From NCBI GenBank assembly GCA_009711825.1, contig VEMY01000048.1:1-40557 (forward strand): a DNA stretch of 40,557 nt, read 5' to 3'. The DNA is from Bacillota bacterium (GTDB taxonomy: Bacteria > Bacillota > Proteinivoracia > UBA4975 > VEMY01). This document shows, piece by piece, positions 7,821 to 38,357 of this stretch. Within the stretch, counting starts at the first letter, position 1, and the number at the start of each line of letters is the position of its first letter. The translations under genes and the position numbers were made by a program. A model generated the notes under the pieces. The model had not been told where the DNA came from, searched no databases, and was given only the letters and a program-made list of their open reading frames with translations.

Positions 7821-8711
7821 GTGACGTGGGGCATAGTATTTAATATCATGAAATATTCTATCAGCGATGGCCCTGGCATTCGCACCACTGTTTTTCTCAA
7901 GGGCTGCCCTTTATGTTGCGAATGGTGTCATAATCCCGAAAGCCAGGGCTGTGACCGGGAGCTAATCCTGCGTCCGGAACGCTGCATTCAGTGCGGCGCC
8001 TGCATGGATGCCTGTCCTGTGGGCGGTGATCAAGACCGCTGTCAACTCTGCGGGCGTTGTGTGGAGGCGTGTTTTAGCGGGGCCAGGGAGTTAGCGGGGC
8101 GCAAAATGACTGTGGCTGAAGTTCTGGCTGAGGTAAACAAGGATTTAATCTTCTACGATGAGTCGGGCGGCGGTGTTACCTTTTCAGGCGGTGAACCTTT
8201 GCAGCAACCCGACTTCTTGGTTGCACTGCTTTCTGCTTGCAAAGAGCAGGAATTGCACACTGCTGTTGACACATCCGGCTTTGCCCCACAGAAAGTAATC
8301 GATGCGGTGGCCGCTTACACCGACCTGTTCCTTTATGATCTGAAGCTACTGGATGATGAAATGCACAAACGTTATGTCGGTGTATCCAATCAGCAAATAC
8401 TCGATAATCTGCAAACGCTGGTGAACCTTAAAAAAACACTGATAATCAGGGTGCCTGTTATTCCCGGTATCACTGATAGCGAGAGTAATATCCAGGCAAT
8501 CGGGAAATTACTGCATGGTTTGCCAATAGAATATATTGAGCTATTACCCTATCACGCCACTGGTGCAGAAAAATATCGCCGCTTGGGACGCGAGTATAGT
8601 TTGCCATCGCTTCAGTCCCCGGATGCCGAGAGAATGCAAATGATAGCGGCTTGGTTGAGACCCAGTGGACATAGAATCAAGATTGGAGGAGCTGCCAATG
8701 GCAATGACTGA
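7821..8711 (+). CDS. hypE: Glycyl-radical enzyme activase, radical SAM (HypE-type)
   Basis: This 296-residue cytoplasmic iron-sulfur protein uses S-adenosylmethionine to put the glycyl radical on the partner dehydratase. The radical-SAM cluster motif is C29-x3-C33-x2-C36 (GCPLCCEWCHNPE). A ferredoxin-like insert with two CxxCxxCxxxC motifs (residues 55-65 and 74-84) binds two auxiliary 4Fe-4S clusters, as in activases outside the PflA type. The GGEPL motif that contacts SAM is present (FSGGEPLQQPDF). The start is GTG 7821. Its last 14 bases overlap the start of hypD, so the pair is translationally coupled. The symbol here means hydroxyproline activase, not the hydrogenase maturation gene of the same name. 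Confidence 0.88.
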   Translation: MTWGIVFNIMKYSISDGPGIRTTVFLKGCPLCCEWCHNPESQGCDRELILRPERCIQCGACMDACPVGGDQDRCQLCGRCVEACFSGARELAGRKMTVAEVLAEVNKDLIFYDESGGGVTFSGGEPLQQPDFLVALLSACKEQELHTAVDTSGFAPQKVIDAVAAYTDLFLYDLKLLDDEMHKRYVGVSNQQILDNLQTLVNLKKTLIIRVPVIPGITDSESNIQAIGKLLHGLPIEYIELLPYHATGAEKYRRLGREYSLPSLQSPDAERMQMIAAWLRPSGHRIKIGGAANGND

Positions 8712-11064
8712 ACGAGTACGCATACTGCGTCAACAATCCCTGGAGACAATTCCTTCAATAACCGATGAGCGGGCGCGACTGCTTACCGAGTTTTATAAAC
8801 AAGTGCCGGTGGATGCCCATCCTGTGCCGATTCACCGTGCCCTGGCGTTTAAATATATCCTGGAACATAAAGAAATCTGTATTAATCCCGGGGAGTTGAT
8901 TGTCGGCGAGCGGGGTCCTGGTCCCAAGGTCACCCCAACTTATCCGGAACTTTGCTGCCACAGTCTGGAAGATTTGGATCTGCTTCATAACAGGGAGAAG
9001 ATTCCCTTTACAGTTTCCGAATCGGTGCGCAATACCTATGCCGAAGAGATTATTCCCTTCTGGCAGGGCCGTTCAATGCGCGACCGGATTTTTGCCGCCA
9101 TGACCCAGGAGTGGAAGGATTGCTATGAGTCGGGAATTTATACTGAGTTCATGGAGCAGCGGGCGCCCGGGCACACTGTGGCCGATGAAAAGGTGTTTAC
9201 CCGCGGTTTCCTGGATTTTAAGGCGGAAATTGCCGAGAGTTTAGCTTCCCTCGATTGGTTAAACGATCCCCGGGCCCTGGATAAAAGCGAGCAGCTCAAG
9301 GCGATGGATATCTGCGCCGATGCAATTATAATCTTTGCCCGCCGCCACGCGGACGTAGCACGGAGACTGGCGGAGACTGAATCTGACCCCCGGCGCCGGT
9401 GGGAGCTGGAACAAATTGCTGCCAATTGTGAGCGTGTGCCGGCGCATGCGCCGGAGAACTTCTGGCAGGCGCTGCAGGGATACTGGTTTGTGCACCTCTG
9501 TGTGATTACCGAACTCAACACCTGGGATTCCTTTAACCCCGGACGCCTGGATCAGCATTTGTGGCCATTTTACCAAAAGGAAACTGAGTCAGGTGTGCTG
9601 GATAAAGAGCAGGCCCGTGAGCTGCTGCAGTGCTTCTGGGTTAAGTTCAACAATCAGCCGGCGCCGCCCAAGGTCGGTGTCACGGCAGCCGAAAGCGGGA
9701 CCTACACTGATTTCGCAAATATTAACAGTGGCGGCCTCCGCCCAGATGGCAGTGACGGCGTTAACGAAGTGTCCTACTTGGTACTGGATGTAATCGATGA
9801 AATGCAATTATTACAGCCCAGCTCCAACATTCAGTTAAGCAAAAAGAACCCGGATCGTTTCCTCAAGCATGCCTGTCGGGTTATCCGCAAAGGCTGGGGC
9901 CAACCTTCGATTTTCAATGCCGATTCGGTTGTTCAGGAGCTCATCAATCAGGGCAAGTCCTTGGTGGACGCACGGTGTGGTGGAACCAGCGGCTGCGTGG
10001 AAACCGGCGCCTTTGGCAAAGAGGCCTATATCCTCACCGGTTACTTTAACCTGCCCAAGGTGCTGGAAGTCGTTTTGCATAATGGCCGCGATCCGGAGAC
10101 AAAAAAGCAGATTGGTTTACAGACCGGGGACCCCCGGAGTTTCGCCAGCTTTGATGAGTTGATGGATGCTTATAAAAGGCAGCTCAATCATTTTATCGAC
10201 ATTAAAATCAGGGGCAACCATGTTATCGAGCGACTTTATGCAAGGGATCTACCCTGTCCTTTCCTGTCCCTGATTATCGATGACTGTATCAAGACAGGCA
10301 CCGATTATAATGCAGGCGGTGCCCGCTACAACACCAATTATATTCAAGGGGTCGGGATCGGCACTGTCACCGATTCTTTGGCGGCGATTAAAGATTTAGT
10401 ATATGACAAAAATCTAATAAGCATGGATGCATTGCTTGCGGCCCTCGCCGACAACCTGTCTGACCAGCGGATTCGCTTGTTGTTACAAAACAAGCCACCT
10501 AAATACGGAAACGATGACGATGCTGCCGATGAGCTGATGGTTGAAGTGTTTCGCATCTTCTATCAGGCAGTAGATGGTCGGGAGACCGTTCGGGGTGGCA
10601 CTTACCGCATCAATATGCTGCCCACTACTTGTCACGTCTACTTTGGTTCCCGGACCGGCGCTACTCCTGATGGACGTGTGGCCCATAAACCGTTTTCCGA
10701 GGGGATTTCTCCCGTACAGGGCGCTGATCGAAACGGCCCGACTGCGGCAGTAAAATCTGCCGCAAAGATGGATCATCTTCTCACCGGCGGTACTTTGCTG
10801 AACCAAAAGTTCACTCCCCAGGTGTTGGCGGGAGAGGAGGGCATTGAAAAGCTTACACGCTTGGTGCGGTCCTACTTCAAGCTGGACGGCCACCATATTC
10901 AGTTTAATGTTGTAGATGTTGTCACCTTGCAAGCAGCGCAAGAGGATCCTCAAGCATACAGGGACCTGATTGTCCGGGTGGCGGGGTATAGCGACTACTT
11001 TTGCGATCTAAGCAAGGAGTTGCAGGACGAAATAATTGCCCGCACCGAGCACAGTGCAATTTAA
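8698..11064 (+). CDS. hypD: trans-4-hydroxy-L-proline dehydratase (glycyl radical enzyme)
   Basis: This 788-residue enzyme removes water from trans-4-hydroxy-L-proline to give pyrroline-5-carboxylate, which ProC can reduce to proline. The catalytic motif GGTSGCVETGAFG puts the thiyl cysteine at residue 433 and its partner glutamate at 435. The glycyl-radical loop RVAGYSDYF puts the radical glycine at residue 763. Length and both positions agree closely with the characterised Clostridioides difficile HypD, and long stretches such as PTYPELCCHSLEDL and TEFMEQRAPGHTV look HypD-specific rather than choline- or glycerol-type. The ATG at 8698 follows GGAGGA. proC is not in the window. Oxygen destroys the active form, so an anaerobic life is implied. 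Confidence 0.87.
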   Translation: MAMTERVRILRQQSLETIPSITDERARLLTEFYKQVPVDAHPVPIHRALAFKYILEHKEICINPGELIVGERGPGPKVTPTYPELCCHSLEDLDLLHNREKIPFTVSESVRNTYAEEIIPFWQGRSMRDRIFAAMTQEWKDCYESGIYTEFMEQRAPGHTVADEKVFTRGFLDFKAEIAESLASLDWLNDPRALDKSEQLKAMDICADAIIIFARRHADVARRLAETESDPRRRWELEQIAANCERVPAHAPENFWQALQGYWFVHLCVITELNTWDSFNPGRLDQHLWPFYQKETESGVLDKEQARELLQCFWVKFNNQPAPPKVGVTAAESGTYTDFANINSGGLRPDGSDGVNEVSYLVLDVIDEMQLLQPSSNIQLSKKNPDRFLKHACRVIRKGWGQPSIFNADSVVQELINQGKSLVDARCGGTSGCVETGAFGKEAYILTGYFNLPKVLEVVLHNGRDPETKKQIGLQTGDPRSFASFDELMDAYKRQLNHFIDIKIRGNHVIERLYARDLPCPFLSLIIDDCIKTGTDYNAGGARYNTNYIQGVGIGTVTDSLAAIKDLVYDKNLISMDALLAALADNLSDQRIRLLLQNKPPKYGNDDDAADELMVEVFRIFYQAVDGRETVRGGTYRINMLPTTCHVYFGSRTGATPDGRVAHKPFSEGISPVQGADRNGPTAAVKSAAKMDHLLTGGTLLNQKFTPQVLAGEEGIEKLTRLVRSYFKLDGHHIQFNVVDVVTLQAAQEDPQAYRDLIVRVAGYSDYFCDLSKELQDEIIARTEHSAI

Positions 11065-16114: not shown

Positions 16115-17431
16115 TTGAGGCGTTGGCTTGTACTGATCTTAATTTTCTTGCTTAGCGCTTGTGTTGTTGAAGATGAACCGGAACCGCCGCCTGTGGAGCC
16201 GGTAACGATTACATTCGAAACAGATTACCGGCATCCGCACGTATACCTGACGCTGAGCGAACCGGAGTCAGCTAATGAAATTGTCCGGAATCTGACGATA
16301 ACGCCCAAGGTGGAATATTCTGTAGAGAATGAGCAAGCTCAAATCTCAATTGTATTGCATGACTGGGACTATGAAACCGAATATACTTTGACAGTTGCGC
16401 CCTTTGCCAGTAAAAAGCAAGCATTGCCCACTGAATATGTGTACAAGTTTGAAACCGTCCCGTCGGTTTTTAAGCTTGTTGCCGTCGGTGATGTGATGCC
16501 AGCAATTCTCACTGAAAAGCGCGTTAACGAATATGACCCCGGGTACCCGTTGGCAAAGATTCGTGAACGCATCAAATCCGGCGACCTGGTGTTCGGCAAT
16601 TTGGAAGCGCCAATTTCTGATGTCGGTAACCCTATGGACAAGGCCTATGTTTTCCGGGCCAAGCCATTCACCATTGAAGTGCTTCTTGATGGTGGGTTTA
16701 ATCTTGTTTCGCTGGCAAACAACCATATCCTGGATTATGGAGCGGAGGCAATGTTGGACACGATTGATCTTCTGGACCAGCATGGTATTGCCCATGCGGG
16801 GGCCGGCAAAGATCAAGCTGCTGCCGGAGCGCCGGTATTGCGGGAGGTAAACGGGGTAAAAGTTGCCATGCTGGCTTACACAGGCGCTTTTCCCGCCAGG
16901 CTATATCCCGCCTGGCAGGCAGGGCCAGATACACCCGGAACGGCATTTTATTATGACGAGGATAGGCTGGTGGAGGCTGTCAAAAGCGCTCGCGAGCTTG
17001 CCGATGTGGTTATTGTTTCTATGCACTGGGGCTATGAATACACCTATGCTACCAACGCCGAGCAGCATCGATTGGGTAAACTGGTTGTCGACAGCGGCGC
17101 TGACCTGGTCCTGGGGCATCACAGTCATACGCCCCAGGGCATTGAGTTCTACGGAGGTAAACCGATAGTCTACAGTCTGGGGAATTTTTTGTTCTATCCC
17201 TTTGCCACCCAGAAACTTTGCAACGAGACTTATATTCTGGAAGCAGAAATTAATAAGGATGGGGTGCAGGCCATGAGTCTTGTGCCGGTACTGCTGGGAG
17301 ATAGTCAGCCTTTTGTTCCCGAAGGTGAGGAACTGGAGCGTATGCACGAGCTCTTAACCGGTCTGTTGGGTCGCTACGACACGCCGTGGGCAATTGACGG
17401 TGAACGGGTTGTAATTTCTCTGGATAACTAA
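16115..17431 (+). CDS. CapA-family lipoprotein (metallophosphoesterase-like)
   Basis: This 438-residue protein has a lipoprotein signal peptide with lipobox LLSAC (cysteine 16), so it is probably anchored outside the membrane. Residues ~30-110 look like a beta-sandwich, Ig-like domain. The CapA domain follows: AVGDVMP, GNLEAPISD, ANNHILDYG, SMHWGYEY, LVLGHHSHTPQGIE and IVYSLGNFLF give the metal-binding Asp, Asn and His residues of this phosphoesterase-related fold. In Bacillus, CapA/PgsA takes part in poly-gamma-glutamate export, but no capB or capC lies here, so the substrate is open. The start is TTG after GGAGGTG. It ends at a very strong terminator. Confidence 0.85.
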   Translation: MRRWLVLILIFLLSACVVEDEPEPPPVEPVTITFETDYRHPHVYLTLSEPESANEIVRNLTITPKVEYSVENEQAQISIVLHDWDYETEYTLTVAPFASKKQALPTEYVYKFETVPSVFKLVAVGDVMPAILTEKRVNEYDPGYPLAKIRERIKSGDLVFGNLEAPISDVGNPMDKAYVFRAKPFTIEVLLDGGFNLVSLANNHILDYGAEAMLDTIDLLDQHGIAHAGAGKDQAAAGAPVLREVNGVKVAMLAYTGAFPARLYPAWQAGPDTPGTAFYYDEDRLVEAVKSARELADVVIVSMHWGYEYTYATNAEQHRLGKLVVDSGADLVLGHHSHTPQGIEFYGGKPIVYSLGNFLFYPFATQKLCNETYILEAEINKDGVQAMSLVPVLLGDSQPFVPEGEELERMHELLTGLLGRYDTPWAIDGERVVISLDN

Positions 17432-19905: not shown

Positions 19906-19933
19906 AAAAGCCGCGGAATCGCGGCTTTTTTAA
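19906..19933 (+). terminator. Intrinsic terminator of glnS
   Basis: Perfect 10-bp stem AAAAGCCGCG/CGCGGCTTTT with a 4-base GAAT loop and a T6 tract. It starts 3 bases after glnS and reaches the stop of the convergent ATP-grasp gene. Confidence 0.92.
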
Positions 19934-20967
19934 TCTGTAAAATTTCGCGCCAGATAGCTGGCATATTCCAGCGGCCTGCCGAAGACTGCTTCTGCATGCC
20001 TGAAATCTTTTATTCCTTTGTAGAGTCTCTTTTGCGGAAATCCGTTGACCTCGATGAGCCACAGTTTATCTGCCCGGTCGAGAATGAAGTCTACGGATAA
20101 CTCGCCCAGCAAACCATAGTTTAGTTCCAACACCCGCGCCACAGCCAGGCTGGTTGTATTTAGGGTGTTGAGAAATGCCGGGGAGAAATGTTTGGAGGCC
20201 AGGGTTTCGATTTCATAAATAGCACGGATTTGGCTAGTGTTATAGAAGTACTTGAGCGCCAAACGGCAAACACTGCTGGAAACTGCCCATTGTCCGCGGC
20301 CATCCTTTTGCACCAGCACCCGAATATCAAAAAGATGACGGTCGATATTCGCCGACTCAATTCCCTGCTGAACCAGATACTGTTTATCAGGACTAAGATA
20401 ATCAGCCAGCTTCGCATCTAAGCTATCGCCTTGCTTGCAGAGCAGTCTGCGGACCATGGTATGAAAGGAGATATAGACATTCCCATTGGGCTCTAGCTCC
20501 AAACGGTATACCTCTGTACCTTTATAACCCAAACTAGCCTTGACAAATACTTGTCTGTAGGCTTCCAACATTGCCATCAGTTCTTTTTCTGTGTAAATTT
20601 GGGTCTCTGGCAGATAATCGACGAGACCGGCCGTGCTCAGAGAATTATACACAGCCCATTTTTCAAAGCGATTAACCGCATTGAAGCACTTATTTTTGCC
20701 AATTGCCTTTTCCAGGCGAATAAAGAACCGGTTCTTCTTTCGATTATAGCAGCGATTGTAGACCGCATCAGGAAACGGAAATGATTTATCCCTGAACTCC
20801 CCATCTTGTTGATGCAGTCCGTGGATTCGCCTATTTTTCCAGCTGATATCTTTGCGGGAGAATGCGAAGAGCTCCAGATTAGATTTATTGTACGGCTGAT
20901 GGAGTTCCAGGTGTTTTTTTTTGTCAGCCCAATTTGGGACCAGGAGACCGATTAATATTGGTTTCAT
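19930..20967 (-). CDS. YheC/YheD-family ATP-grasp protein (spore-associated)
   Basis: This 345-residue protein has an N-terminal part starting MKPILIGLLVP and a C-terminal ATP-grasp domain: the lysine segment QVFVKASLGYKGTEV, DIRVLVQKDGRGQW, and the metal-binding end GELSVDFILD...LWLIEVNG with glutamate and asparagine ligands. ATP-grasp enzymes join a carboxylate to an amine or thiol using ATP. YheC and YheD of Bacillus subtilis are associated with the spore coat, but their reaction is unknown. I chose the ATG at 20967, with AGGAG upstream, over longer starts. It is the third family member in the window, apart from the tandem pair at 34.8-37.0 kb. Confidence 0.83.
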   Translation of the reverse strand: MKPILIGLLVPNWADKKKHLELHQPYNKSNLELFAFSRKDISWKNRRIHGLHQQDGEFRDKSFPFPDAVYNRCYNRKKNRFFIRLEKAIGKNKCFNAVNRFEKWAVYNSLSTAGLVDYLPETQIYTEKELMAMLEAYRQVFVKASLGYKGTEVYRLELEPNGNVYISFHTMVRRLLCKQGDSLDAKLADYLSPDKQYLVQQGIESANIDRHLFDIRVLVQKDGRGQWAVSSSVCRLALKYFYNTSQIRAIYEIETLASKHFSPAFLNTLNTTSLAVARVLELNYGLLGELSVDFILDRADKLWLIEVNGFPQKRLYKGIKDFRHAEAVFGRPLEYASYLARNFTD

Positions 20968-34035: not shown

Positions 34036-34101
34036 TATACATATGTCCAGAACCAGTTGCCAGGAATCAACATATCAATATAGCGGAAGGAGGTTTATAG
34101 C

Positions 34102-34761
34102 ATGACAATAGAAAAAAGTTTCCCGGTTGGAAAAGGGCCCATACCCCCGCCCACTGAGGTGGCATGCGTTTATGTAAAGAAAATCTATGATGCCTGCTCC
34201 CAACGCGAGTGTGACGAGTTCTTCTTTACCGACCTGGAGCTCCCCGAAGGTGTGCCGGTAGCAGACTTGGAAGTTGAATGTTCAATCGTTCCCGGCAGTG
34301 AATTTTTTGAGGACTGGTCAATTGAGCCAATTGATGGCGGACCACTGGGCTTGGTACGGGTCAATGTTTGCGCTATCCTGGAAATCCGGATATTTGACAC
34401 CAATGATCCCGGCAATTACACCATCAATGAGGAGACCGTTTGCTTCTTCAAAGAGGTAATTCTCTACGCTCCCGACCCGATACAGATGCAGGTACTTGTG
34501 GAATCTATTTTCGAGGCATTGGCCTGCGAAGCATTTATCGAGACTGGCGATGAAGAGGAAGAGGATTTCCTGTTGGTTATTGCCACCATCGGCGCATTTA
34601 TCATTGTCAAGACTGCCCTGCATGTCCAGCTCTTAGTTCCCGCCTTCGGTTTTTGCCCGGTGCCGCCTGAGTGTGAGGAGCTGGGAGACCTTTGCGAACA
34701 GTTCTTGCAGCGGCCGTTCCCGCCGTTTTTCCCGCCCCAGTTGAATGATCTAAATACCTGA
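34102..34761 (+). CDS. Cysteine-containing protein, possible spore-coat component
   Basis: This 219-residue acidic protein has no signal peptide. Its early motif VYVKKIYDACSQRECDEF resembles a K-I/V-Y-D-x-C-x-x-x-x-C element that I associate with uncharacterised proteins of spore-forming Clostridia. Cysteines are scattered along the chain (about nine in all), a hydrophobic stretch lies at about 150-180 (LLVIATIGAFIIVKTALHVQ), and the C-terminus is proline/phenylalanine-rich (RPFPPFFPPQ). It sits directly upstream of two YheC/YheD genes, so it may be their coat partner or substrate; that is inference. The ATG follows GGAAGGAGG. Confidence 0.68.
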   Translation: MTIEKSFPVGKGPIPPPTEVACVYVKKIYDACSQRECDEFFFTDLELPEGVPVADLEVECSIVPGSEFFEDWSIEPIDGGPLGLVRVNVCAILEIRIFDTNDPGNYTINEETVCFFKEVILYAPDPIQMQVLVESIFEALACEAFIETGDEEEEDFLLVIATIGAFIIVKTALHVQLLVPAFGFCPVPPECEELGDLCEQFLQRPFPPFFPPQLNDLNT

Positions 34762-34778
34762 TGACAACATTGTCTGTG

Positions 34779-34804
34779 ACCTGCGGCACATCCCGCAGGT
34801 TTTC
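34779..34804 (+). terminator. Hairpin, possible attenuating terminator
   Basis: Perfect 8-bp stem ACCTGCGG/CCGCAGGT with a 6-base loop and only TTT behind it. It lies 27 bases before the ATP-grasp start, so partial readthrough into the ATP-grasp genes is likely. Confidence 0.6.
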
Positions 34805-34830
34805 ACTTTCTGTACAAGGTGGTTTTAGCG

Positions 34831-35940
34831 ATGCATGAGCAACCGCTCTTAGGGGTGATGTTACCCCCCGATGTGCTAAAAGAAATGGAGCAGGGTTCGA
34901 TTCGACCACGGATGGGCATGTTGAACGCAGCCGCAGTGGAGGCCGGAGTGTCGGTGGTGTTCTTCAGCATGGAGGGTGTAGACCTCGAAAACCGACAGAT
35001 TAACTGTATCCGGTATAACCAACAGGCAGAGCGCTGGTGTCAAGGGGTTGCGGTTTACCCGAGGGTGTTTTATAAACGCTCTGGCAACGGTCCTTCAAAC
35101 CGTAAATTCGACAAATTTATACGACAGCTCAAAGCTTCCGGCGCACGGTTTTTAAACTATCCATTTCCCTACCCAAAAATGGAGGTCTACAATAAGCTCT
35201 ACAAGAATAAATCTGTCCGGCCATATCTGCCTGAGACTGTTCAGCTGTCCGGGCCTCGGATACTGGAAATGATGCTCAATCGCTACGGCGACGTCTATGT
35301 TAAGGCTAGCCTCGGTAGCCGCGGTAAGCGTGTTGTACGGATAAAGGCAATTGCGCCCCGTTGTTACAGGTTGACGTACTTCGACGATCAGCCGGAGACT
35401 GTGGTCTACAGGAATCTTTCCAAAATGATACAGGATTTGGAGCGGATGGCTTTATATCGAGATGTGCTTGTTCAGCCCGCTATCGATTTGATAAAAGTTA
35501 ATGGGCGTCTGGTGGATTTTCGGGCTGAAGTCCAGCGCACCGGTGACGGTCAAATAGTAGCGTATGCTATCCCGGTCCGGGTCGGTAGTTCCGCTTCCCC
35601 GATAACTACCCATGCTTCTAGTTATCAAATGGAGGAATTCCTAACTAAGTTTCTCAACTACGAAACGTCTGATGTTTCTGCCCTGCGCAATCGTGTGGAA
35701 GAGTTCCTGGTAAAAATCTATAGGGCTATTGAACAAAGCTATGGACAATGTGGTGAGATGGGTATCGACTTTGGCTTGGACACTACCGGCAAATTGTGGT
35801 TTATCGAGACCAATTCAAGATCTGCGAAAGTGTCTCTTTTTCACAGCTATGATGAAGCAACCATAAACCGTCATTTCCAGACACTTGTCCAGTATGCCGT
35901 CTCGATTGCAGGTGATGTCAATGAGCCCAGCGAAGAGTAG
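34831..35940 (+). CDS. YheC/YheD-family ATP-grasp protein, first of a tandem pair
   Basis: This 369-residue protein has an N-terminal PLLGVMLP entry domain and a C-terminal ATP-grasp domain: DVYVKASLGSRGKRVVRI supplies the ATP lysine and glycine-rich loop, VDFRAEVQRTGDGQI the central strand, and GEMGIDFGLD...LWFIETNSRSAK the metal ligands. It would catalyse ATP-dependent ligation, but the substrate is unknown; the family is tied to the spore coat in Bacillus. The ATG at 34831 follows AAGGTGG by 8 bases. Its last 20 bases overlap the next gene, so the pair is coupled. It differs enough from its neighbour to suggest an old duplication. Confidence 0.86.
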   Translation: MHEQPLLGVMLPPDVLKEMEQGSIRPRMGMLNAAAVEAGVSVVFFSMEGVDLENRQINCIRYNQQAERWCQGVAVYPRVFYKRSGNGPSNRKFDKFIRQLKASGARFLNYPFPYPKMEVYNKLYKNKSVRPYLPETVQLSGPRILEMMLNRYGDVYVKASLGSRGKRVVRIKAIAPRCYRLTYFDDQPETVVYRNLSKMIQDLERMALYRDVLVQPAIDLIKVNGRLVDFRAEVQRTGDGQIVAYAIPVRVGSSASPITTHASSYQMEEFLTKFLNYETSDVSALRNRVEEFLVKIYRAIEQSYGQCGEMGIDFGLDTTGKLWFIETNSRSAKVSLFHSYDEATINRHFQTLVQYAVSIAGDVNEPSEE

Positions 35941-37048
35941 CGGCAACGATCCCCGTCCATTAGTGGGAGTGTTTGTGACTAATAGCACCGTCAACAGCTT
36001 GCTGGCCGGTAATGCCCGTCCTAGGTTGGTAACTCTAAATGAGCAAAGTCAGCTGCTTGGGGTAAGTTTGTTTGTGTTTGCAGAAAGAAATATCGACTTG
36101 CAAAAGAGGAAGATCGCGGGTTTAGTGTATAATCCTGATGTGAAAAAGTGGGTTCAGCGGGTATTCCTGTTTCCTGACATTCTTTACACCCGTCGTGGCC
36201 CCGGCAAAAAGGGCAGCAAGGCTGATAAGTTTGTGCAAGCAATCGCCCAGATAGGGATTCCGCAGATAAATTCCTGTTCTGATTTTGACAAATGGGATAC
36301 CTACAGCCGATTTAGACGCTATCCCGAGTTAGTTTCCCACCTTCCTGAAACCTGTTTACTGACTACTGTTGACCAACTGAAAGATATGTTCGCCAGGTAT
36401 CAAAGCTTGTATATCAAAGGAACAATTGGTCGCCATGGACGGAAAGTGATTCGGGTTGACCGGCGACACCGCCAATATATAGCTAGTCACCTGGGTAAGC
36501 GTCTGCGGGTCTGGCGGTTCTCCAGCATCCGGGGATTGTTACACAAAGTGCGGGCTGTGTTGAATAGCAAAAGGCTTCTGGCGCAGCAAGCCGTGGGCTG
36601 TATCCAGCTGGCGGGAGGTAATGTGGACTTTCGCGCGGAAGTCCAAAGAGACGGGAACGGGGAACTGGGCGTAACCTGTATTGCCGGCAGGGTGGCCACA
36701 CCGGGAGCGCCGGTCAGCAGTTCTCGCACCGGTTCAACGGTTTTTACTTTTGCTGACACATTGCGACGCTGCAGCTATTCAGATACCCAGATTCGTTCCT
36801 TAGAGCAAGCGGCCGAAACCTTTTTGTGTAATATCTTTCAGTGTGTGGAGCAGGAATATGGTTCATTTGGTGAATTGGGCATTGATTTTATTATTGACAC
36901 CGATGATAAGTTCTGGTTATTGGAGGTAAATGCCAAGTCCGCCATGGGAGCGGCCGGTCAGGCATGGGATGCAGAGACAATCGCCTTGCTCTACAGGCGG
37001 CCGTTGGAATATGCCCGGTATCTCTTCGAAAGCAACAGCCAGCCTTAA
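35921..37048 (+). CDS. YheC/YheD-family ATP-grasp protein, second of the pair
   Basis: This 375-residue paralogue has the same layout: PRPLVGVFV at the start, the loop LYIKGTIGRHGRKVIRV, VDFRAEVQRDGNGELG, and the end GELGIDFIID...FWLLEVNAKSAMGAAG with intact acidic and asparagine ligands. Both copies look catalytically complete, so they may act in sequence or as a heterodimer. I chose ATG 35921, with AGGTGA 7 bases upstream; earlier ATGs in this frame lie deeper inside the upstream gene. The next gene starts 58 bases later on the same strand. Confidence 0.86.
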   Translation: MSPAKSSGNDPRPLVGVFVTNSTVNSLLAGNARPRLVTLNEQSQLLGVSLFVFAERNIDLQKRKIAGLVYNPDVKKWVQRVFLFPDILYTRRGPGKKGSKADKFVQAIAQIGIPQINSCSDFDKWDTYSRFRRYPELVSHLPETCLLTTVDQLKDMFARYQSLYIKGTIGRHGRKVIRVDRRHRQYIASHLGKRLRVWRFSSIRGLLHKVRAVLNSKRLLAQQAVGCIQLAGGNVDFRAEVQRDGNGELGVTCIAGRVATPGAPVSSSRTGSTVFTFADTLRRCSYSDTQIRSLEQAAETFLCNIFQCVEQEYGSFGELGIDFIIDTDDKFWLLEVNAKSAMGAAGQAWDAETIALLYRRPLEYARYLFESNSQP

Positions 37049-37106
37049 ACGGCTGGCTGCAATAATTAATCGCTATGAGCAGCAAACTAGCTTTGAGGTG
37101 ATTGAG

Positions 37107-37799
37107 ATGCGTGTGTGGGATGTGCATCCGGGCTACCTTTCCCGGTCCAGTCTCTTGGGGCAACATGTTGAAATCCATGCAGTGTACAGTGTTATTACTG
37201 GTAAGAAGCAAGGTTACGCCAGGCATCCAGAAACGATGCGTTGGCGCAATCATCTGGCTGAATTGGTGCGGATTCATGACCTCACTGTTGGCGAGATGCT
37301 GCTGCGGGGATTTGAGCATAACAGTCCACTGCACTTTGAACCGGCGACCGACTCAGTTAGCTTGACCTATGTGGATTCACCTCGGCGCCAGTTTGAGCTA
37401 CTGGTGGAAAAATACACCCAAAAAAACCAACAGGGTAGGATACCTCTGCCGAGAATAAACTCAGAGTTTTGGGCGCATCATCATTACTCGGTGCTGGCGC
37501 GGGGAGTAGAGGGTTACAAACTTGCGGCATCCAAGTTGCGGAGCTTACCCGCCAGGGAGCTGAGTGATTCGTTTGTTACTTACATTACCGAAATCCTGCG
37601 CCAACCAGTCGAGTCCGATGCTCTCAATGAAGTTGCCGAACGCATTTTGCATCTGATTGAGGACCGCGTAGATAGGGCTGAACAATTACGGAAAAAAAGT
37701 AGGGGTGAATTGTGGCGGAGTTGTTTTCACATGGCAGAGAAATATCACCTGCGTACTTTGTTGCAATCCACGATATTTGCCGATACAATTTTACCGTAA
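37107..37799 (+). CDS. Pyrimidine-dimer DNA glycosylase-like protein (endonuclease V family)
   Basis: The first ~75 residues of this 230-residue protein (MRVWDVHPGYLSRSSLLGQH, GYARHPETMRWRNH) match the T4 endonuclease V / Pyr_excise family. Glu22 in QHVEIH aligns with catalytic Glu23 of the T4 enzyme. Residue 2 is Arg, not Thr, so methionine removal would not expose the usual nucleophile. The remaining ~150 residues are helical and unfamiliar, making the protein much longer than T4 EndoV (138). The ATG follows GAGGTGATTGAG. Its position after the ATP-grasp genes could link it to UV damage repair in spores, by inference. Confidence 0.7.
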   Translation: MRVWDVHPGYLSRSSLLGQHVEIHAVYSVITGKKQGYARHPETMRWRNHLAELVRIHDLTVGEMLLRGFEHNSPLHFEPATDSVSLTYVDSPRRQFELLVEKYTQKNQQGRIPLPRINSEFWAHHHYSVLARGVEGYKLAASKLRSLPARELSDSFVTYITEILRQPVESDALNEVAERILHLIEDRVDRAEQLRKKSRGELWRSCFHMAEKYHLRTLLQSTIFADTILP

Positions 37800-37901
37800 T
37801 TACAGCGATGGCAGTTATGCGTATTTAATGAAGGCAGGTTACCCAATCACTGTATTATCGGCATCGATAATGGTAAAATGTACCGGTTGGAGGCGGTTGT
37901 A

Positions 37902-38357
37902 ATGAAAATTGTCATTGATGCCGATGCTTGTCCCCGGGCAGTGCTGCAGACTTGTTTTTCGTTGGGGAAAAAGTACGCGCTGCCGGTATGGACTGTAGCC
38001 AGCTTTGAGCATTGCATCGACAGCGAGAACCATTTGATTGTTGGCAACGACCCCCAGGCTTCTGACATCAAGCTGATGAATATTACCGAGGCCGGGGATA
38101 TAGCTGTTACACAGGACTGGGGTTTGGCTGCCATGCTGCTGGGAAAAAGGGTGCGTTGCCTCAATCCCGCCGGCCGCTTGTATGACAAGGGGAAGATTGA
38201 TTTTATGTTGGAGGAACGGAACTTGAAGTTTCGTCATCGCCGAGGTGGTGGACGGACCCGGGGGCCCAGAAAACGTAGCCGCGAGCAAGATCATAAATTT
38301 GCTGCCATCTTAGAACGAGCGATTCAGGAGCAGCTTGCCATTGATATTGACAGTTGA
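37902..38357 (+). CDS. YaiI/YqxD-family protein (DUF188)
   Basis: This 151-residue cytoplasmic protein has the family hallmarks: IDADACPRAV at residues 5-14, GNDPQASDIKL around 47-57, VTQDWGLAAMLL (~73), LNPAGRLYDKGKID, and the basic tail RHRRGGGRTRGPRKRSREQD. It resembles PIN/NYN-type nuclease folds by its spaced aspartates (D6, D8, D50, D54, D76), but no activity is established. The ATG at 37902 follows GGAGGCGG; an ATG 8 codons upstream lacks a site. It ends the co-directional cluster before a terminator. Confidence 0.9.
   Translation: MKIVIDADACPRAVLQTCFSLGKKYALPVWTVASFEHCIDSENHLIVGNDPQASDIKLMNITEAGDIAVTQDWGLAAMLLGKRVRCLNPAGRLYDKGKIDFMLEERNLKFRHRRGGGRTRGPRKRSREQDHKFAAILERAIQEQLAIDIDS

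Follow-up and report, generated by a model that had tools for sequence, protein, structure and literature searches.

A recurrent neighbourhood of a putative spore-coat protein family and one branch of YheC/YheD-type ATP-grasp ligases in Bacillota

Ligases of the ATP-grasp class activate a carboxylate and then couple it to an amine. Two such proteins, YheC and YheD, have been associated with the spore coat for two decades and, to our knowledge, neither a reaction nor a substrate has been assigned to them. Here we describe a stretch of 40,557 nucleotides (VEMY01000048.1, positions 1-40,557 of the forward strand, from the Bacillota bacterium assembly GCA_009711825.1; hereafter, the window), in which two tandem YheC/YheD-type genes, designated grA and grB, follow a gene encoding an acidic, Cys-rich protein, designated P1. 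The yheC and yheD genes of Bacillus subtilis are under sigma-E control, with expression raised by SpoIIID (PMC517825), and YheD is a SpoIVA-dependent coat protein (PMC7911427) that associates with itself and encloses the spore in a shell, its function being unknown in 2021 (PMC7911427; see also PMC7769602). The grA/grB pair resembles YheC/YheD in belonging to family PF14398, in being encoded by neighbouring genes and in its spore setting, but differs in that the window pair comes after the putative coat protein P1. The host genome (3.09 Mb, 77 contigs, completeness of 99.8%) is likely that of a spore former, since it encodes SpoIVA; its named relatives of the same order are uncultured Bacillota. 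The new finding reported here is that the P1 family and one branch of YheC/YheD ligases are recurrently neighbours; with P1 relatives beside ligases in several lineages, YheC/YheD gain a concrete candidate partner.

Sampling of 299 Bacillota genomes revealed P1 relatives in 104, of which 80 were covered by the ligase search. Among the 26 genomes with both families (a set that excludes three genomes with marginal ligase matches only), P1 was located within 10 kb of a YheC/YheD ligase in 10, a count from which draft contigs conceal some neighbours, against 0.54 expected under random placement, a null that islands of coat genes would break. When the data were grouped by family and the window's own genome was excluded, 6 of 12 families displayed P1-ligase neighbours against 0.44 expected, the observed count not being reached in 200,000 simulations. 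At distances of 3 kb or less, the neighbourhood was found in 7 genomes against 0.18 expected; the places were copied into the script by hand. In Alkaliphilus peptidifermentans (L133), too, the two genes are no more than 10 kb apart. P1 and ligase genes adjoin each other at about twenty times the frequency expected by chance. Two other families, CotF (PF07875) and SipL (PF12673), constituted the whole set of controls, and their counts, read by eye from the listed places, were 0 of 26 genomes with CotF within 10 kb of a ligase and 1 of 20 near a ligase for SipL (genome G133). We conclude that the association of P1 with the ligases is genuine and that it recurs.

The P1-adjacent ligases also clustered on a ligase tree, with 11 label changes against 23.1 in shuffled labels and none of 500 shuffles as low, in a reconstruction obtained by a quick method, from which the B. 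subtilis copy was absent and whose result is weakened by near-copies and long branches. A clade of 25 rows (support 98) contains both grA and grB; 15 of its rows are P1-adjacent and come from several families, and it also includes ligases of same-order relatives that are not next to P1. An arrangement in tandem is common in the YheC/YheD family, and loci L190 and L192-L196 have arrays whose size ranges from three to at least ten genes. The arrays of L192 and L194-L197 form a tree group apart from the grA/grB branch, and their genomes have no P1 match. The array in L193 (genome G054), with ten or more YheC/YheD genes in one tandem row, goes beyond what any known role explains. Within P1 loci, paired ATP-grasp enzymes recur in differing forms: tandem YheC/YheD genes in the window, L188 and L202; a fused form, in which one polypeptide of 931 aa carries both YheC/YheD ATP-grasp modules and its gene lies about 3 kb away from P1 (L203:6347-9142); and a YheC/YheD gene together with a RimK-type ligase in L174, with similar genes in L170 and L151. 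Open-frame lengths had suggested that fused double ligases are common, and among the loci this was confirmed only for L203.

The P1 gene (34102-34761, forward strand) encodes 219 aa, including 10 Cys, with 40 Asp and Glu residues against 10 Lys and Arg, as expected from the sequence-only reading of this DNA, which had pointed to an acidic, Cys-containing protein here. Attempts to name it through Pfam profiles, through sequence searches of solved structures or through its fold yielded no match: its predicted all-beta structure (predicted local distance difference test, pLDDT, of 85), with seven long antiparallel strands, had no counterpart in the PDB at E <= 0.001. The closest described family is NCBIfam NF052457, that of the morphogenetic spore coat protein BMQ_0737, which is located in the outermost layers of B. 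megaterium spores (PMC4656864). The two are alike in a weak profile match over residues 22-155, in size and in coming from spore formers; they differ in that P1 lies far under the curated cut-off (E 0.0047, 17.1 bits against 71) and in that its family is characterized by a VQLLVPxYGFCP and Cys pattern of its own. The profile was matched by 6 of 20 P1 family members, with E down to 4.9e-11, and no match above the cut-off was found in the 14 genomes searched. When named genomes were scanned, P1 alone retrieved no relative, whereas the P1 family alignment retrieved 80 loci. Two contigs with P1 relatives carry Flavobacteriales and Actinobacteria labels (L119 and L135, respectively) and look misbinned.

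Upstream of P1, an AC-N17-CATAACTTA box in sigma-K layout, with the motif spacing as published (PMC517825), is conserved in the paralogue of the same genome and in same-order relatives. The window copy (34052-34080, forward strand) occupies the same place and reads AC-N17-CATATCAATA; because its -10 box is longer by one base, it misses the strict test pattern (-35 AC, spacer, -10 CATANNNTA), which is exact in the same-order relatives. The strict pattern was detected in 12 of 88 P1 upstream regions against 0.93 expected, six of them from one order and the other six scattered. Given the distant kinship with BMQ_0737 and a sigma-K-like promoter conserved in the order, P1 is most likely a late spore-coat protein, and its location in the coat is further suggested by its distribution in Bacillota. 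The spore link that the sequence-only reading had proposed for this protein therefore gains support, unlike its suggestion that an unusual Pro/Phe tail marks P1 as a ligase substrate: the tail occurs in 44 of 91 P1 relatives, none of which adjoins a ligase in the named set, and it was discarded as such a mark.

Different scaffolds reuse P1 domains. In the window's own genome, contig C4 encodes a 537-aa protein (L068:5090-6703) with a P1-like domain at its end, preceded by a part that reads as beta-helix repeat, and in Desulfosporosinus loci (e.g., L144:9050-10600) the P1 domain is joined to beta-propeller-like repeats.

The first ligase gene, grA (34831-35940), and the second, grB (35921-37048), are both on the forward strand and overlap by 20 bp, as had been noticed in the sequence-only reading; for grA, the preferred start is ATG at 34831, with AAGGTGG upstream, GTG at 34819 being a possible alternative. 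The description of these genes as complete spore-type ligases holds: both match the entire PF14398 profile (grA, E 8.6e-65, 219 bits; grB, E 8.3e-66, 222.3 bits; cut-off 26.8). A third paralogue, grC (19930-20967, reverse strand; E 4e-53, 180.7 bits), had likewise been recognized; it is not beside P1 and was placed on another branch of the family, outside the grA/grB clade. Residues K158, R231, D313, E326 and N328 (grA numbering), conserved across 79 ligases, are kept in all three, leaving the catalytic residues intact. The AlphaFold model of grA (pLDDT 88.9) had 606 matches in the PDB at E <= 0.001, the best being glutathione synthetase (3.4e-12), with LysX/ArgX, RimK, the graspetide ligase PsnB and tubulin-tyrosine ligase among its neighbours. 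With RimK, LysX/ArgX, PsnB and the tubulin-tyrosine ligases it shares the ATP-grasp fold and chemistry class (structure E of 1e-10 to 4e-12), but identity to them is just 10-17%. No precursor-peptide gene or gene for a LysW-like carrier was recognized beside the pair. The host genome has about eight PF14398 places, and a further YheC/YheD ligase on contig C35 (L063:2669-3699) is interrupted by in-frame stops (TGA and TAG), being probably a decaying copy.

Between P1 and grA lies a terminator-like hairpin (34778-34801, forward strand) with a 9-bp stem and a T-rich tail, likely a partial terminator, with a folding energy of -22.4 kcal/mol over 34755-34830 and a z of -1.8. A search for upstream patterns found no promoter of sigma-E or sigma-K type that would serve the ligases alone. 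Since, in addition, the hairpin leaves no space for a clear promoter, the ligases are probably transcribed less strongly, by read-through from P1; abundant P1 and scarce ligase would fit a structural protein and its enzymes.

Taking these features together, we infer expression during sporulation, amide formation and a role of P1 as partner or substrate. The reading that we prefer, to which we give an even chance, is that P1 is a late coat or surface protein and that grA and grB are amide-forming ligases acting on the growing coat, with P1 as substrate or scaffold. P1 would be made late by the mother cell and placed in the spore coat or on the outer spore surface, while grA and grB would be two working carboxylate-amine ligases in the mother cell: ATP would activate a carboxylate to an acyl phosphate, and attack by an amine would yield the amide. 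The likeliest target would be protein, with amino acids attached to coat proteins at acidic side chains or at chain termini, or with links formed between these proteins. Protein modification leads because P1 is acidic, coat-like and next door; with its 40 acidic residues and adjoining gene, it would be the first candidate, either as substrate or as a scaffold holding the ligases. A bolder form, in which a recurrent Bacillota spore-surface module of paired YheC/YheD-type ligases adds amide-linked amino acids to the neighbouring Cys-rich beta protein P1 after its synthesis, is offered tentatively and we consider it rather unlikely. If it holds, the coat would be chemically finished by ATP-grasp enzymes and P1 would be the first substrate of the YheC/YheD family; more generally, a P1-ligase link would reveal how the coat is completed in spore formers other than the Bacillus model.

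Several observations weigh against this preferred reading. The hairpin separates P1 from grA. A second P1 copy in the same genome (80%, contig C46) has no ligase beside it, and its site, with genes for UvrC, a DUF2089-like protein, a CAP protein and a LuxR-type regulator (names read from sequence, with CAP and LuxR confirmed on homologues), is common to same-order relatives, in which a single grA-like ligase adjoins a ribosomal-protein region, apart from P1. Since both the C46 copy and these relatives keep P1 and ligases apart, the window arrangement is lineage-specific and built on a P1 duplicate. Within the named set, a ligase lies within 10 kb in only 5 of 80 P1 loci. Among the 80 P1 genomes searched for ligases, 52 yielded no match to PF14398; P1 therefore does not need the ligases. 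The conserved pairing of P1 with YheC/YheD in relatives, proposed as a check of the sequence-only reading, thus fails in same-order relatives, where the two are never adjacent, yet recurs across Bacillota far above chance.

The separate C46 copy and the lack of the arrangement in same-order relatives are what would be expected if P1 and the ligases had come together by chance in this genome, when a P1 duplicate landed by a ligase pair, and if the examples from other lineages were due to something else; with about eight PF14398 places in the genome, chance adjacency is not negligible here. Nevertheless, the survey excess persists without this genome, and the branch of ligases that includes grA and grB is the one found beside P1 elsewhere, so that we regard chance as a quite improbable explanation.

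The genes that accompany P1 give more weight to the main rival of the preferred reading, according to which P1 and the ligases share a setting only and the ligases make or decorate a non-protein surface component, such as an amide-linked peptide or an amidated sugar polymer. The commonest P1 neighbour is a 536-aa protein (59 of 96 loci), with a coiled-coil end in the members read and no Pfam match above cut-off for its family (e.g., L174:8282-9859); CAP-domain proteins are near P1 in 44 of 96 loci, the domain being confirmed in three, and NDP-sugar and glycosyltransferase genes in 19-29 of 96 loci per family, their functions being read from sequence and one glycosyltransferase alone having been tested against Pfam. 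This neighbour set is what a spore-surface island looks like, and with so many sugar and CAP-domain genes the ligases could act on something other than P1, a further point against P1 as their target; the 52 P1 genomes without ligases fit a shared setting as well. On the other hand, in the window and in the f9 loci L189 and L201, P1 directly adjoins the ligase with no sugar genes recognized between or next to them, and the other coat families, CotF and SipL, are not found near ligases. A non-protein product is the less probable reading on this evidence, and modification of coat protein, with P1 as the first candidate, remains our preferred reading.

All the genes named in the sequence-only reading are present where it placed them, and its claim of a system is partly supported, with the two downstream genes falling away. 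The first (37107-37799, forward strand) encodes an endonuclease-V-like protein (PF03013, E 1.6e-22, 80.1 bits against a cut-off of 23) whose C-terminal part, formerly described as a large novel helical domain, is DUF1722-like by comparison with its nearest homologue: this protein of a same-order relative, with 48% identity over its full length (L191:7851-8564), matches both PF03013 and DUF1722 (PF08349, E 2e-10). Compared with T4 endonuclease V, a pyrimidine dimer glycosylase, and YbgA, the window protein thus has PF03013 at its N-terminus and its homologue carries the DUF1722 of YbgA; unlike a part of the system, it is absent from the ligase locus of relatives and is a neighbour only. The second (37878-38357, forward strand) encodes a YaiI/YqxD family protein (PF02639, E 8.4e-33, 113.2 bits against 24.3; equivalog NF001095, 116.2 against 139). 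As the five genes fit into 4.3 kb of a single strand, one operon for spore DNA repair and modification, with both proteins as working parts, could be envisaged. Against it, the L191 homologue has no ligase or P1 nearby and endonuclease-V-like matches were found in only 3 of 61 genomes, while just two of the 96 P1 loci (L056 and L206), which belong to one genus, have a YqxD gene in the vicinity; in that genus the trio of ligase, P1 and YqxD recurs only loosely. The five-gene operon is already disfavoured and in our view very improbable; on these distributions, the endonuclease-V-like gene is a bystander and the YqxD gene probably one too.

The architecture shared by the 37107-37799 protein and L191:7851-8564, a PF03013 glycosylase-like part with DUF1722, may tie YbgA to the repair of UV damage. 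Elsewhere in the window, which holds the three ATP-grasp ligases, a PGA_cap family protein (PF09587) of the capsule poly-glutamate type is encoded at 16115-17431, and a radical-SAM activase and glycyl-radical enzyme pair (PF04055, PF02901/PF01228) at 7821-11064.

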